Shown one piece after another: positions 1,667 to 22,622 of a stretch of DNA of 64,000 bases. Position 1 is the stretch's first letter. Every line of letters starts with the position of its first letter. Source of the DNA: Streptococcus anginosus (GTDB taxonomy: Bacteria; Bacillota; Bacilli; Lactobacillales; Streptococcaceae); the NCBI RefSeq assembly GCF_001697145.1, contig NZ_CP012719.1, positions 1,336,501-1,400,500 of the forward strand, given 5' to 3'. Made by a program: the position numbers and the translations under genes. The notes under the pieces were generated by a model. It worked only from the letters and a program-made list of their open reading frames with translations, ran no database searches and was not told the DNA's origin.

Positions 1667-1990
1667 TTATTTTTTCACTTGTAATTCTTTTCTCAAGTCA
1701 ATGATTTCCTTGATAAGATTAATTTCTGTAATGCTGGTCATCAAATGATCCTGAGAGTGGACAAACAAAGCTGTAATTTCTGTCTTTGTTCCCCCCGCTT
1801 CCTGTGCCAAAAACTCCGTTTGAAGATTATGAGCTTCTAATAATGCCTGATCTGCCAATTCTAGATACTCATTACACTTTTCAAACTCACCATTTTTTGC
1901 TAATGATAAAGCTTGGTAAATATGCTGTTTGGCATCCCCAGCATGCAAGATTAACCCCATAATGATTTGATCAGCTACAATCACTTCCAT
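1667..1990 (-). CDS. PTS sugar transporter subunit IIA, lactose/cellobiose type
   Basis: A 107-residue all-helical IIA protein of the lactose/cellobiose family, which normally works as a trimer. The phosphorylatable histidine is His78 in FVHSQDHLMTS, followed by Asp81, which binds the metal in LacF. It takes phosphate from HPr, whose gene is also in this window, and hands it to the IIB cysteine. It is the first PTS gene of the operon, and the promoter sits about 75-110 bp upstream. A second IIA of the same family (lacF) is encoded near 56.5 kb, so this is one of two related systems here. Confidence 0.93.
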   Translation of the reverse strand: MEVIVADQIIMGLILHAGDAKQHIYQALSLAKNGEFEKCNEYLELADQALLEAHNLQTEFLAQEAGGTKTEITALFVHSQDHLMTSITEINLIKEIIDLRKELQVKK

Positions 1991-2038
1991 ATTTAACGTT
2001 ACTCCTATTTTTATTTACAAAATATATCTTTCTTTTAT

Positions 2039-2098
2039 TTGAAAGCGTTTTATTTTTGTTTGTAACTCAAATTTATCATCTTTCTCTTATTCCGTCAA
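2039..2098 (-). promoter_or_regulatory. Promoter of the cellobiose-type PTS genes with cre-like half site
   Basis: On the minus strand a -35 TTGACG (2093-2098) and a -10 TAAATT (2070-2075) are 17 bp apart, placing the start of transcription near 2063. Just downstream, at 2039-2054, TGAAAGCGTTTTAT matches 12 of 14 positions of a CcpA cre site, failing at the terminal CA. A cre downstream of the start would act as a roadblock. The promoter is visible; CcpA control is inferred. Confidence 0.55.
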
Positions 2099-2161
2099 TA
2101 TATCACTGAACAAATTCTCTTTTTTTATATTTATCGCACATTTGTGCTTATCAAGTGAAAT

Positions 2162-2194
2162 AAAAAAGGTCAGAATCATTATTCTTGACCTTTT
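2162..2194 (-). terminator. Rho-independent terminator after the SorC gene
   Basis: An inverted repeat with arms around AAAGGTCAGAAT, one bulge and a short loop is followed on the minus strand by a run of T. It separates the SorC gene from the PTS promoter. A-rich flanks on the other side mean it could work in both directions. Confidence 0.7.
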
Positions 2195-2235
2195 GAAGAT
2201 GAAATAACGAGGAAAAGGAGAACTTTTATAAACTA

Positions 2236-3198
2236 CTAATTAACTGCACTATTATCCAATTCCAACACTTTTAAAATAGTTGCTTCATCTGTAACTAAAT
2301 GGTTGACATACCCAGCACGTAAAACCGCCAAAATAGCGGCAGCTTTTTGACGACCATAGGCAAAAGCCAGACTGTGAGGAACTGTTTTTAAATAATCTAA
2401 AGAAATAGCAATTGTTCGATTTTGCAACTGTTCATCAACCAACTCACCATTTTCATCAAAAAAGCGGCAACAAATTTCTCCGACAGCTCCTTCATTTTCC
2501 ACTGTACGAAAATCTTCAGCCGTCAGCATATCCAACCACTGCCGATTCTTTTCATCCACTTGTCCGCCAATACCAACAACAACCACATCTAGTTCTTGCC
2601 AACTTCTTTTTAAGTCCTCAAAATATTTAGAAGACAAAATTCCTTTTGCTAAGATCTCGTCTTCCTGTATAATCGTCGCATTCATAAAGCGACAATCCCC
2701 ATGGTATTTATTAGCCATACTGTAAATGAGGGTATTAACATGATAACGAGCATGAATATGGCTAGGTCCGCCAGCCAATGGAAAAAAATGCACATTATTC
2801 AAGTGCCGACTGCCCGAGTGTTCTACCAAGAGACTAAGACTCTTTCCCCATGAAAATCCAACTTTAGCATTGTCATCAATCATCCCCCGAAGCATTCCTG
2901 CCGCTGATTGAGCTAACCGCTGCTCCAAATCAGAAGGTGAATCATCCACTTGATTTGCTACGATTTCAAGTCCTTTTAACCCATACTTCTCTTTCACTAC
3001 ATTTTCTAAATGAAACAAACGAGTATCAAAGGCTTCAATCTCGATTTTGACAATGCCTTCCTTTTTAGCTTCAGCCAGCATACGACTCACAGTTGTCCGA
3101 TAAATCCCTGTCTCTGCTGCAATTTCTGCCTGACTTTTCTCCTCTACATAATAAAGATAAGCAATCTTAGCTAATAGCCTTTTTCTTTCACTTTTCAT
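2236..3198 (-). CDS. SorC/DeoR-type sugar-binding transcriptional regulator
   Basis: This 320-residue protein has an N-terminal helix-turn-helix (about residues 14-50, including EEKSQAEIAAETGIYRTTVS). It is followed by a SorC-type sugar-phosphate-binding domain with GFSWGKSLSLLVEH near 112 and VVVVGIGGQ near 205. SorC regulators sense phosphorylated sugars and often switch between repression and activation. It lies 18 bp downstream of the DeoR-family gene, probably in one transcript, and directly upstream of the PTS genes it likely controls. Having two sugar-type regulators in tandem matches the related streptococcal cluster. The effector is unknown. Confidence 0.88.
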   Translation of the reverse strand: MKSERKRLLAKIAYLYYVEEKSQAEIAAETGIYRTTVSRMLAEAKKEGIVKIEIEAFDTRLFHLENVVKEKYGLKGLEIVANQVDDSPSDLEQRLAQSAAGMLRGMIDDNAKVGFSWGKSLSLLVEHSGSRHLNNVHFFPLAGGPSHIHARYHVNTLIYSMANKYHGDCRFMNATIIQEDEILAKGILSSKYFEDLKRSWQELDVVVVGIGGQVDEKNRQWLDMLTAEDFRTVENEGAVGEICCRFFDENGELVDEQLQNRTIAISLDYLKTVPHSLAFAYGRQKAAAILAVLRAGYVNHLVTDEATILKVLELDNSAVN

Positions 3199-14214: not shown

Positions 14215-15966
14215 GTTTTGGATCCATTCGAAACAGCACAGCTCTAAAACCATTAACTGTATTTGTAAAGTTGGCCGGCTGTTCTGGAACCATTCGAAAC
14301 AGCACAGCTCTAAAACTAAATTAAGAGAATCGATTCAATCGCTTGTGTTTTGGAACCATTCGAAACAGCACAGCTCTAAAACTATGTATTCCCCACGCGC
14401 AAACCGAGTATTGTTTTGGAACCATTCGAAACAGCACAGCTCTAAAACACAGCTAGAACAAGCATCTCAATCGCAGTCGTTTTGGAACCATTCGAAACAG
14501 CACAGCTCTAAAACATGCTCAATAAAATTCATAATACATTTCATGTTTTGGAACCATTCGAAACAGCACAGCTCTAAAACACCAATGCCTACGTTTTAAG
14601 CTACCTTGTGGTTTTGGAACCATTCGAAACAGCACAGCTCTAAAACAGGTAGTAAATGGAATCTAGCAAATAAGATGTTTTGGAACCATTCGAAACAGCA
14701 CAGCTCTAAAACATAGACGGCATTTGCTTTCGGTGTCACAATGTTTTGGAACCATTTGAAACAGCACAGCTCTAAAACAATCGTGAGCAATTTGCTCTTT
14801 GGAAATCAGTTTTGGAACCATTCGAAACAGCACAGCTCTAAAACTTTAGTTATAAATTTCACAACACTATTATAGTTTTGGAACCATTCGAAACAGCACA
14901 GCTCTAAAACTAAAGGTGAGGAAAAGCTCAATCAGGCTAAGTTTTGGAACCATTCGAAACAGCACAGCTCTAAAACAAACAAATTCGATTCTTAGAACAG
15001 CGCGGAGTTTTGGAACCATTCGAAACAGCACAGCTCTAAAACTAAGAACTCCTCTTTAAAAATAAAAGGGCAGTTTTGGAACCATTCGAAACAGCACAGC
15101 TCTAAAACGCTAAATTCTACAGTCGTACCATCTGGATAGTTTTGGAACCATTCGAAACAGCACAGCTCTAAAACAATTCATAGCTTTTTTTAGTTCTTTA
15201 TCTTGTTTTGGAACCATTCGAAACAGCACAGCTCTAAAACAATCTTTAAATCGACTACGTTTTTTATCATGTTTTGGAACCATTCGAAACAGCACAGCTC
15301 TAAAACTTAGATACAGTAAACTTATCTCCACTACCTGTTTTGGAACCATTCGAAACAGCACAGCTCTAAAACAATTCATAGCTTTTTTTAGTTCTTTATC
15401 TTGTTTTGGAACCATTCGAAACAGCACAGCTCTAAAACTCGCTAATCTATGATTTCGAATGCTTGCCAGTTTTGGAACCATTCGAAACAGCACAGCTCTA
15501 AAACTGCCCTTTTTACTTTCTTCTTCACGCGCCAGTTTTGGAACCATTCGAAACAGCACAGCTCTAAAACACAATCCTGTCCAGGAATACATGGAAACTG
15601 GTTTTGGAACCATTCGAAACAGCACAGCTCTAAAACGTTTTCTTGATGATACTATAATAGCACGTTGTTTTGGAACCATTCGAAACAGCACAGCTCTAAA
15701 ACCACTACCCAGATAGGTTCTTGGGATAACAAGTTTTGGAACCATTCGAAACAGCACAGCTCTAAAACCAACAATTGCACATGGTGATTATGCTGCGTGT
15801 TTTGGAACCATTCGAAACAGCACAGCTCTAAAACTTACTTTTTTGCGTTTTTGCCGTAAAATATGTTTTGGAACCATTCGAAACAGCACAGCTCTAAAAC
15901 ATAACTTTATCATTCTTTCTGTCATGAAAAGTTTTGGAACCATTCGAAACAGCACAGCTCTAAAAC
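14215..15966 (-). CRISPR. Type II-A CRISPR array, 27 repeats and 26 spacers
   Basis: Repeats of 36 bp recur with an exact 66-bp period from 14215 to 15931, so every one of the 26 spacers is 30 bp. On the minus strand the repeat reads GTTTTAGAGCTGTGCTG... and ends in TTCCAAAAC, the form seen in streptococcal type II-A systems. Transcription is on the minus strand, since the leader and cas genes lie at the high-coordinate end. The leader-distal repeats carry changes: 14215 has GGATCC for GGAACC, and 14281 has GTTCTGG. One internal repeat (14743) has CATTTG. Spacers 15175-15204 and 15373-15402 are identical, so 25 spacers are unique. Long open frames across the array are artefacts of the repeats. 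Confidence 0.99.
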
Positions 15967-16062
15967 CTCGTGGACCAATTTTTGTCTCGAAATTTCGTAA
16001 TCGCGCCATTCGTCCCAGCTAGACTTCAGCTCGAACGATTCCTTATATTTGTTAATATTATA
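15967..16062 (-). promoter_or_regulatory. CRISPR leader and array promoter
   Basis: Read on the minus strand, the leader ends in CACGAG directly against the first repeat. This resembles the ACGAG leader-anchoring end that Cas1-Cas2 uses for spacer insertion in S. pyogenes-type II-A loci. An extended -10 TGGTATAAT (TATAAT at 16057-16062) lies over the csn2 stop codon and predicts a start near 16050, so the array can be transcribed independently of the cas operon. No good -35 is seen, as is common for extended -10 promoters. Confidence 0.8.
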
Positions 16063-16720
16063 CCATATTCTCACAAGATAAGAAATAGTCCTCATCCACT
16101 ACATATTGAGGGAAGTCGTATACTTTTCTTGGTTCAACAAACAGTACATTTATATTATGAAGTTGAATATATTCTACCAATTTAGCTAGTTCATGTTCAG
16201 ACAGATAACATGACATATTCACAAAGACAAGCAGTTTCTTTTTAGAAAGATATTTAAACACCTGAACAATCTCTAAACTTTTCTCAAAAACAGTGTCACT
16301 TAGTGTTTCAATTTTTACACCTAAAGCATCAATCAATTCCAAAATTGTTATTTCATCATACTCTAAATCCAGCTCGTTTTCTAAACATTCAAAAGCAATT
16401 AGTTCTGTAATAGTTGCAACTAATTTTTCTAACATAGATTTCACTTCGGGCTTTTCATTCAACTGTTTTTCCAAATCCGCACGAATCAGTTTTAACATTG
16501 CCGGTGAGTTAATATTGTAGCCTAAAATATCTGTAATAAGCAATAACTCGGATTCTTTCAAGGATTTCATCTTGTTATCAAATAATTTTAGCTCATCTTC
16601 TTCCGAATAGTGATATAGGTGTTTGACAACATCGGAAAATATCAGCTGTTCCTCTAAAATAAGGAAAGTAGCCTGTTTAATTTCAATCGGTTCGTCCAGA
16701 ATCGGAAAATTAATTTTCAT
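16058..16720 (-). CDS. csn2: Type II-A CRISPR-associated protein Csn2
   Basis: A 220-residue Csn2 of the short, S. pyogenes-like kind. It forms a ring-shaped tetramer that slides on DNA ends and takes part in spacer acquisition with Cas1, Cas2 and Cas9. The N-terminus [20 protein letters not shown] is typical, and the C-terminal half carries [16 protein letters not shown]. It is the last gene of the cas operon, overlapping cas2 by 11 bp. Its stop codon lies inside the -10 box of the array promoter. Its presence assigns the locus to subtype II-A. Confidence 0.95.
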
Positions 16721-17054
16721 CTGTAAAATCCTCTCCTAGAAATACCAACCTTGCATCTGAATTGGCAATACTGGTATCCCTTTCTCCATTCAAGTAGATC
16801 ATGCGAGAAAATTGCTTTTCTGTTACCGTTAAAAGGGTGATACTTCCCTTCTTAGGATTATTAACTTTTAACCGCTCAAGCATGGCATTATTGGCAGAAT
16901 TATTCAAAAGCAATTTACTGTATACCGAAAACTGATGCATGATGAACCCTTCATTCATCAAGAATTTCCTAAATTTTCGATAAGCTTTACGCTCCTCTGC
17001 AGTCTCAACCGGCATATCAAACATTAAAATCATTCGCATATATCGATAACTCAT
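16710..17054 (-). CDS. cas2: CRISPR-associated endoribonuclease-like Cas2
   Basis: A 114-residue Cas2 with the ferredoxin-like fold of the family. It begins [28 protein letters not shown], with the conserved Asp of FDMP (residue 13) that binds metal in Cas2 proteins. It forms the core of the Cas1-Cas2 integrase that inserts spacers at the leader end. It overlaps cas1 by 4 bp (ATGA type) and csn2 by 11 bp, so translation is coupled. Confidence 0.96.
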
Positions 17055-17920
17055 ATCCTAAATTCAGGAACTCCTTTCCCCATTTGATTCAATGTCTTTA
17101 TCACTTTTTTGGTGTAATCACTGATGATGTTAGATAAATACATTTCTTTTCCATTATAGAGAAAAGTATCAGAAAAAATAGTAAACAACTCTCTCTTAAT
17201 TTTCACAAAGTCATCGTTCCTGTTTTCATAAACAATTCTGTCAATAATTGGACGAAACGGCTCCATTATATCACTTGCCAGATTAAATTGGTTAAACTGA
17301 TTGGCATGCTTCAGCCCAAACTGAGTCATACATCCACAAACTACTACTTCCCGAGCAAATATACTTAGTATCAAGGTGTAGCCGTAATCAAGAGCAGCAT
17401 TAATATCATTATCTTGTTCCCTTGAAAAATCATTTCCAAATAATGTATTAAAGTAAATCCGAGCTGCATGTCCTTCGCGGTTACTAGGATCAAACAGCTC
17501 CAACCTATTATACAAATCAATGACAGACTGTGATTTTTCAAAGAAACCACAATCTCCAAGATACATCGCTTGATTTAGAATCTTCTGTGCAATGATTGTC
17601 GTCCAGACTTCTGCCTTAACATCTTCTGACCAAGTGATCTGATTACTTAGCTGCAAACTGGAATCGTGACGCGCATAGTAGGGCATCAGCATGGCTGTCG
17701 GCAAACGCTTATCATCACAAAAAATAACTAAAATATTCTCATCAACCAGCCGCTTAATCAGCATGGTTGACAGCACAATATCAGTTGTCTCCAACAACAA
17801 GATATCCACCTCGGACAGATGAATCAACTCTGTCCGAGAGGCATCCTTGAAGATCAAGTGATTATTCTTGTAGGAAAGTTTTGAATGTGTATTTACAACA
17901 ACTGTTCTCCATCCCATCAA
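17051..17920 (-). CDS. cas1: CRISPR-associated integrase Cas1
   Basis: A 289-residue type II Cas1. Family features are the start [21 protein letters not shown], the conserved glutamate region in [16 protein letters not shown], the [16 protein letters not shown] block, and the histidine in [30 protein letters not shown]. These supply the catalytic metal ligands. It catalyses spacer integration with Cas2. It overlaps cas9 by 4 bp and cas2 by 4 bp. The length is normal and nothing appears broken. Confidence 0.96.
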
Positions 17921-22224: not shown

Positions 22225-22241
22225 CCTTAAGATACAACTTT
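22225..22241 (-). promoter_or_regulatory. Predicted Cas9 self-regulatory target site (14-bp protospacer plus AGG PAM)
   Basis: The minus strand reads AAAGTTGTATCTTA (22241 down to 22228) followed directly by AGG (22227-22225). The 14 bases are identical to plus-strand positions 22331-22344, the predicted 5' end of the long tracrRNA. The match ends after 14 nt; the next bases differ. The site covers about +10 to +24 of the cas promoter transcript, so bound Cas9 would block initiation or promoter escape. A 14-nt guide is generally long enough for stable Cas9 binding but too short for efficient cleavage. Confidence 0.82.
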
Positions 22242-22257
22242 TATAATTTATAATTTG

Positions 22258-22285
22258 ATTATATCACATATTTTTAAATTTTCAA
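22258..22285 (-). promoter_or_regulatory. cas operon promoter (Pcas)
   Basis: On the minus strand TTGAAA (22280-22285) and a perfect TATAAT (22258-22263) are spaced by 16 bp, predicting a start near 22251. The resulting 5' leader to cas9 is about 297 nt and contains no convincing open frame. The tracrRNA promoters lie just upstream, reading the other way. Confidence 0.78.
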
Positions 22286-22315
22286 CAAAAATAATGATGA
22301 ATTTCTATAAAAATG

Positions 22316-22324
22316 TGATAGAAT
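22316..22324 (+). promoter_or_regulatory. Promoter of the long tracrRNA
   Basis: An extended -10 TGATAGAAT (TAGAAT at 22319-22324) on the plus strand has no clear -35. The expected start, 7 nt downstream, is A22331. This is exactly the first base of the 14-nt match to the cas promoter, which supports both the promoter call and the guide. Confidence 0.7.
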
Positions 22325-22344
22325 TAATAGAAAGTTGTATCTTA

Positions 22345-22380
22345 GTTTTAGAGTTGTGTTGTTTCGAATGCTTCCAAAAC
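22345..22380 (+). repeat. Degenerate CRISPR repeat outside the array
   Basis: A single 36-bp repeat copy in the orientation opposite to the array. Against the array repeat it has T for C at positions 10 and 15 and C for G at position 27. It keeps the full GTTTTAGAG start and TTCCAAAAC end. Its position directly after the 14-nt guide, between the divergent cas and tracrRNA promoters, argues for retained function. Confidence 0.93.
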
Positions 22381-22497
22381 TACACCAAATTTCTTAGATT
22401 TCCACAGAACTATATATTTTAAACAGATCGTTCACACTAAGTTTTCTCATATAACAATATAATTTCCTCAGTATATTAATATTTTATCAGAAAAACG

Positions 22498-22526
22498 TTT
22501 ACATTTAAAGAAAAATATTGTATACT
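22498..22526 (+). promoter_or_regulatory. Promoter of the short tracrRNA
   Basis: TTTACA (22498-22503) and TATACT (22521-22526) are spaced by 17 bp, predicting a start near 22533, at the beginning of the anti-repeat. It lies inside the predicted long tracrRNA. Confidence 0.8.
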
Positions 22527-22532
22527 ATCATT

Positions 22533-22622
22533 GTTGGAACCATTCGAAACAACACAGCAAGTTAAAATAAGGCTTTGTCCGTATCCAACTTGAAAAAGTG
22601 GCACCGATTCGGTGCTTTTTTC
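22533..22622 (+). ncRNA. tracrRNA (short form)
   Basis: About 90 nt. The anti-repeat begins GTTGGAACCATTCGAAACAA and pairs with the array repeat over 25 bp with a single A-C mismatch, then an AAG bulge and the TTAAAAT stretch. Nexus-like sequence AAGGCTTTGTCCGTATCCAA and the stem AACTTGAAAAAGTGG follow, then the terminator hairpin GGCACCGATTCGGTGC and a T run. The 3' half is nearly the same as the S. pyogenes tracrRNA. It directs RNase III processing of pre-crRNA and loads crRNA on Cas9. It is transcribed divergently from cas9. Confidence 0.96.

Follow-up and report, generated by a model that had tools for sequence, protein, structure and literature searches.

In a 64,000-nt stretch of the Streptococcus anginosus genome (hereafter, the window), Cas9 very probably represses its own cas operon under the guidance of a long form of the tracrRNA (tracr-L), a reading drawn from the DNA of the locus and from its counterparts across the genus. 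Autorepression by tracr-L is already known from S. pyogenes and has support from a PAM mutation in S. mutans; the window is a further clear case, and no reading beyond this one is needed for it. Transcription from position 22331, binding by Cas9, the lack of cutting and the repression itself are proposed by analogy with these two species. The features on which the argument relies are collected in Table 1.

Table 1. Features of the CRISPR-Cas and tracrRNA region, in window coordinates.
Feature	Position	Strand	Evidence and remarks
tracr-L guide segment AAAGTTGTATCTTA	22331-22344	+	Read directly; the 11 nt adjoining the repeat are the conserved part
Protospacer	22228-22241	-	14/14 identity to the guide; about +11 to +24 of the predicted cas transcript
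AGG PAM	22225-22227	-	Read directly; +25 to +27 with a cas +1 at about 22251
Pcas, TTGAAA-16-TATAAT, TG before the -10	22258-22285	-	Consensus scan, 11/12; predicted +1 at about 22251
tracr-L promoter, extended -10 TGA-TAGAAT	22316-22324 (-10 at 22319-22324)	+	Sequence; predicted +1 at 22331, 7 nt downstream
Degenerate CRISPR repeat, solitary	22345-22380	+	CRISPR-DR22 (Rfam), 50.7 bits (gathering score 50); can pair in cis with the anti-repeat
Repeat-to-tracrRNA linker, 151 nt	22381-22531	+	Includes the short-form promoter
Probable short tracrRNA promoter, TTTACA-17-TATACT	22498-22526	+	Consensus scan
tracrRNA: anti-repeat, nexus, terminator hairpin (22600-22616)	22532-22622	+	Rfam RF02348, 102.8 bits; terminator-like site
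cas9, 1345 aa	17917-21954	-	NCBIfam TIGR01865, 849.9 bits; DRKR PAM-reading motif
cas1	17051-17920	-	TIGR03639
cas2	16710-17054	-	TIGR01573
csn2, defining subtype II-A	16058-16720	-	TIGR01866
CRISPR array, 36-nt repeats, 30-nt spacers	~14281-15966	- (crRNA sense)	Rfam repeat matches

A first-pass annotation of this DNA had noticed that the 14 nt at the predicted start of tracr-L recur in inverse orientation next to an AGG PAM, and direct reading of both segments bears this out. The match is exactly 14 nt long whichever start site is used, because base 15 differs. When the 11-nt seed followed by NRG was searched across the whole 2.0-Mb genome with at most one mismatch, a single site was returned, at Pcas. 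The annotation had also placed the target in the early transcribed region of a good cas promoter, which agrees with the high consensus score of Pcas and with the position of the protospacer just below it.

The genome is a single contig, and its type II-A CRISPR-Cas locus, on the minus strand, has all of cas9, cas1, cas2, csn2 and the tracrRNA. The next gene after the locus is sufB. The window Cas9 keeps the RKR residues to which NGG recognition had been ascribed, within a C-terminal ...DRKRYTS... stretch, and NGG flanks four of the six protospacers of the window array that were checked, out of 53 phage records matched. Five of these six phage matches are perfect (30/30), four of the five lying in S. 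anginosus prophages, and other spacers have their matches in phages of S. pneumoniae (30/30) and of S. suis (27/30). The spacers make an anginosus-group host likely; S. mutans, whose Cas9 has the same length as that of the window, was considered as the host and dropped in view of the S. anginosus prophage matches and of the window tracrRNA, which lacks the S. mutans insert. The spacers at 15835-15864 and 15109-15138 have 30/30 phage matches with the non-NGG flanks AGAAT and GGTCA. Within the array, a 102-nt repeat-spacer-repeat stretch occurs twice in identical form, at 15139-15240 and 15337-15438, so that one spacer has been duplicated.

The reading of the locus as 14 nt leading into a degenerate yet complete repeat and then into a tracrRNA stands up in every part. 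The solitary repeat is identical to the array repeat at 33 of 36 positions and lies on the strand opposite to the array. Folded on its own, the segment 22331-22622 reaches -60.5 kcal/mol, well below the mean of its shuffled versions (-41.9 kcal/mol; z -4.78; equalled by none of 200 shuffles), and in the predicted structure the repeat pairs with the anti-repeat in the manner of a single-guide RNA. The minimum-energy fold also pairs some guide bases with the nexus region, an interaction that Cas9 would have to undo. The tracr-L promoter is absent from the output of our sigma-70 consensus scan because it has no good -35, and its assignment rests on the extended -10. We also considered a repeat-like sequence in the cas9 leader, GTTTTAGAG (around 22024, minus strand), as a second tracrRNA-binding site and rejected it: its predicted duplex of -7.5 kcal/mol is ordinary, being equalled or bettered by 126 of 261 leader windows, itself included. 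This nine-base motif is absent from the scanned stretch of the other 26 cassettes described below, four of which have the shorter GTTTTAG.

To place the window in its genus, we collected tracrRNA matches from Streptococcus genomes, finding them in 118 of 284 genomes at 120 places, of which 110 were examined and ten weak ones left out. The 110 loci came from two retrieval rounds (30 and 80), some being shortened by contig ends, and they retain L117, L137 and L140, whose tracrRNA anchor (three errors) is probably wrong. A cassette was defined as a -10 followed after 17-21 nt by a GTTTTA-like repeat start, upstream of the tracrRNA, a filter that may miss cassettes. Forty-two loci were first called; L031, L046, L048, L049 and L054 were omitted to avoid counting one genome twice, which gave 37 of 110, and L022, L024, L026, L078, L079, L098, L109, L114, L136 and L139 were then discarded on visual inspection, being chance hits, gene sequence or array repeats. 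Twenty-seven cassettes were kept after this hand curation, with L014 and L016 moved by hand to their first repeat, and 83 of the 110 loci are not scored as having one. Among the 27, the repeat of the window is the third best conserved, after those of L083 and L076, and in no other cassette is the repeat so far from the tracrRNA core (212 nt, in a range of 85-212).

The same near-intact repeat gives some room to a different use of the RNA, in which RNase III would cut the internal duplex and release a crRNA-like 5' piece that joins any tracrRNA and represses Pcas in trans. The computed duplex of the solitary repeat with the anti-repeat (-37.8 kcal/mol, versus -42.6 for the array repeat) is compatible with such processing, and the Francisella scaRNA, a separate guide working with tracrRNA in the part of PMC8730458 available, offers a precedent. 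However, compared with either of two forms of the array repeat, the repeat of 22 of the 27 cassettes retains under 29 of 36 bases, and this speaks for an uncut single guide as the usual arrangement. The presence of repeat and anti-repeat in cis does not discriminate here, because our cassette search required it. We regard a two-piece guide as unlikely, though less so than any of the alternatives that follow, and its target and outcome would in any case be identical to those of the single guide.

The guides of most other cassettes also have a matching site at their own locus. The search took in both strands, beginning 500 nt upstream and ending 250 nt downstream, and 20 of the 27 cassettes have a contiguous guide match of at least 9 nt (actually at least 10) beside a GG PAM, whereas each of the 15 other dinucleotides in the PAM place gave such a match in 0-2 of the 27. 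None of the ten loci removed by eye has a match of at least 9 nt; counting them in would lower the rate from 20/27 to 20/37. Set against foreign loci, guides matched over at least 9 nt in 23 of 702 ordered pairs; where the last ten bases of the two guides differ, the figure is 5 of 680. With both strands open to the search, all 20 NGG matches of at least 9 nt fall on the cas coding strand. The window protospacer likewise lies on the coding strand, so its guide pairs with the template strand, as had been proposed from the window sequence.

A narrower test asked how closely guide and target change together. Only NGG sites that precede the repeat by 60-150 nt and lie on the other strand were considered, 75 of them at the 27 loci, and a pair was retained if at least 6 contiguous and at least 10 of 14 bases matched, giving 21 pairs with 15 distinct guide 11-mers. 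Over the 11 PAM-proximal positions, 228 of 231 bases are identical, whereas 20,000 permutations of the partners average 139.4 and never exceed 176; choosing the best of a mean of 2.8 sites per locus inflates this identity somewhat and cannot produce it, and the permutation is not a strict probability, related species being non-independent. The co-variation that had been suggested as a check among related strains is thus positive across the genus, in a comparison run between species.

The same pairs inform on guide length. Own-pair identity is 0.90-1.00 at positions 1-11 and then 0.52, 0.62 and 0.29 at positions 12, 13 and 14, where cross-pair identity is 0.39, 0.32 and 0.30. Identity that is high over 11 nt and at background by nt 14 indicates a selected guide of about 11 nt, and the 14 nt of the window are probably an 11-nt guide with an incidental extension; position 13 stays above background, and there is perhaps a weak constraint at positions 12-13. 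The 14 nt originally proposed are therefore right for the length of the match and are probably not the length under selection, since identity falls after 11 nt. A specially selected length of 14 nt is unlikely: by our own arithmetic, chance alone would take about 0.8 of the 21 pairs to 14 nt, and two get there, the longest matches of the set being those of L066 (15) and of the window (14).

The position of the promoter is equally regular. In 20 loci found by guide, repeat start and target alone, with the -10 ignored, a -10 of at least 4/6 stands 18-20 nt before the repeat in all 20 (at least 5/6 in 17), with TG ahead of such a position in 19, while at other single distances only 0-5 of the 20 loci reach 5/6. 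If transcription begins 7 nt downstream of such a -10, the guide measures about 11-14 nt, which supports 22331 as the predicted start; the site first deduced from the extended -10 of the window thus gains support from its conservation across loci.

These regularities bear on whether the repeat and its 14 nt might be nothing but the functionless remains of an ectopic repeat-spacer unit, a self-targeting spacer that has decayed. The repeat is indeed solitary and degenerate, as such a remnant would be, but a relic would not keep covariation, PAM, strand and promoter spacing throughout the genus, and its spacer would be expected to measure 30 nt as in the array, not 11-14 nt; we hold this origin to be highly improbable. 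A chance inverted repeat in AT-rich intergenic DNA can be set aside with near certainty: in 20,000 sequences from a Markov-1 model built on 526 nt of intergenic DNA, matches of 6-7 nt with an adjacent NGG are not uncommon (0.012 and 0.004 per sequence), but at least 10 nt with NGG arises at a rate of 5e-5 and at least 11 nt in none, the site is unique in the genome, and the guide-target covariation refutes the idea.

Autorepression by tracr-L can be compared with what is known of S. pyogenes, where, in the work of Workman et al. (Cell, 2021), tracr-L is reportedly a natural single guide with which Cas9 represses Pcas. The window shares with that RNA the long tracrRNA, the short 5' guide, the internal repeat copy and the NGG-flanked target in Pcas. 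Our survey contains a positive control, L017, whose tracrRNA holds the SpCas9 scaffold core, making it an S. pyogenes-type locus. Two further loci have this core: L029, and a short contig titled Streptomyces sp. (L038) whose copy looks like an engineered guide; no cassette is scored in L029, despite the scaffold core that it shares with L017. The L017 target lies on the same strand as that of the window. The differences concern dimensions: tracr-L would be about 292 nt in the window and is 171 nt in S. pyogenes, the repeat keeps 33/36 bases versus 17/36 in L017, the match is 14 nt versus 11 nt, and the PAM is about 11 nt farther from the predicted cas start than in the S. pyogenes-type locus (+24 versus +13). 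The predicted target position at about +11 to +24, the near-intact repeat and the long linker are thus the window's modest peculiarities. The 11-nt guide of L017, beside a GGG PAM, agrees with the 11 nt given for the S. pyogenes sequence in the accessible text of PMC8616872; the corresponding figure in another review is 9 bp (PMC8730458, in part).

As for S. mutans, six loci with an S. mutans-like tracrRNA fragment have no cassette scored by our filter. The portion of Kim & Marraffini 2024 (PMC11417352) available describes Cas9 as directed to Pcas by tracr-L and, for S. mutans NN2025, a predicted target with an AGG PAM that seems to lie downstream of the -10, both of which the window shares; changing AGG to AGC at the S. 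mutans site raised cas9, cas1 and csn2 transcripts and spacer acquisition. According to partial text of PMC12216829, S. agalactiae shares the loop, and P1cas is lost in its CC-17 strains. Type II-A systems are known from S. anginosus and S. intermedius (PMC8841824, in part), and that review does not name Workman, its only mention of tracr concerning S. pyogenes. We found no report of tracr-L in the anginosus group in a partial literature search, and the Workman 2021 survey may list one.

A third point of comparison is the Francisella system. In the accessible section of PMC8730458, scaRNA has short complementarity and a diverged repeat and turns active Cas9 into a repressor. The F. novicida scaRNA differs from the window in being a separate RNA that uses tracrRNA in trans and in targeting a lipoprotein operon rather than Pcas (PMC8730458, in part). 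In the window, the guide is followed on its own strand by the tracrRNA, and the genome search yielded no site with seed and PAM apart from that in Pcas.

Several loci depart from the general pattern. In L002 the guide agrees with an NGG-flanked site at 12 of 14 bases, 7 of them contiguous. In L120 (G160) the target is displaced by a DDE-transposase gene and matches 9 contiguous bases and then has one mismatch; the transposase ORF (1980-2843, minus strand) sits between the tracr-L cassette and the cas promoter, which carries this near-match with an AGG. The guides of L013 and L141 match over 11 and 10 nt, with strand and distance as in the other loci, but the PAM place is taken by TAG and AAG instead of NGG. 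L076, L083 and L129 have no matching site in the stretch from 500 nt upstream to 250 nt downstream. In L129 and L141 the 3' part of the tracrRNA departs midway, by eye, from the usual nexus and terminator and looks truncated, with the upstream cassette kept. L014 and L016 (G131 and G025) have two repeat copies upstream of the tracrRNA, as if for a possible second guide; a two-guide tracr-L was considered and rejected, two 11-base second-guide patterns with NGG having no exact match in G131 or G025.

L076 and L083, from the related genomes G058 and G059, have complete cassettes with repeats identical to the L114 array repeat at 35/36 and 36/36 positions, and neither genome contains further copies of this repeat with at most one mismatch. 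In each genome, promoter-like DNA (L143, 1501-1514) contains the sole occurrence of eleven nucleotides of their guide followed by GGG, upstream of a gene with a sub-threshold match to Nuc_deoxyrib_tr (nucleoside 2-deoxyribosyltransferase). This second site is common to the two genomes by homology, and by our own estimate chance would supply it at about 0.1-0.3 per genome, so we treat it as a lead only. These sites would suggest that a tracr-L guide can acquire a target other than the cas promoter, which seems improbable; if true, the autoregulator of G058 and G059 would have become the regulator of another gene, as with scaRNA.

Based on the above, we propose for the window the mechanism that had first been put forward by likeness to the long tracrRNA of S. 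pyogenes, which fits a unique match with its PAM, a repeat in cis and covariation throughout the genus. Two forms of tracrRNA would be made from the locus, the short one serving ordinary immunity. The long form (approximately 22331-22622) would carry an 11-14 nt guide and a repeat copy that folds onto the anti-repeat, yielding a single-guide RNA. Cas9 loaded with it would bind the AGG-flanked site early in the cas transcription unit, where the pairing may be too short to license cutting, and Cas9 would stay bound. Since the guide pairs with the template strand, a configuration that in CRISPRi makes an elongation block less likely, the bound Cas9 would rather block initiation or promoter escape, placing cas9-cas1-cas2-csn2 under negative feedback. 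A parallel exists in Drosophila, in which guides truncated to 14-15 nt repress with no detectable target mutations (PMC10495392, in part).

The window thus adds a well-formed natural example of a Cas9 that would act as its own repressor. Taken with its relatives, it supports a rule for tracr-L in the genus Streptococcus: covariation of guide and target extends over the 11 bases nearest the PAM, a -10 keeps a distance of 18-20 nt from the repeat, which allows the start site to set the length of the guide, and all strong matches have their target on one and the same strand. With this rule, tracr-L can be annotated in genomes, and departures from the pattern, for instance cassettes lacking a target in Pcas, can be recognised.
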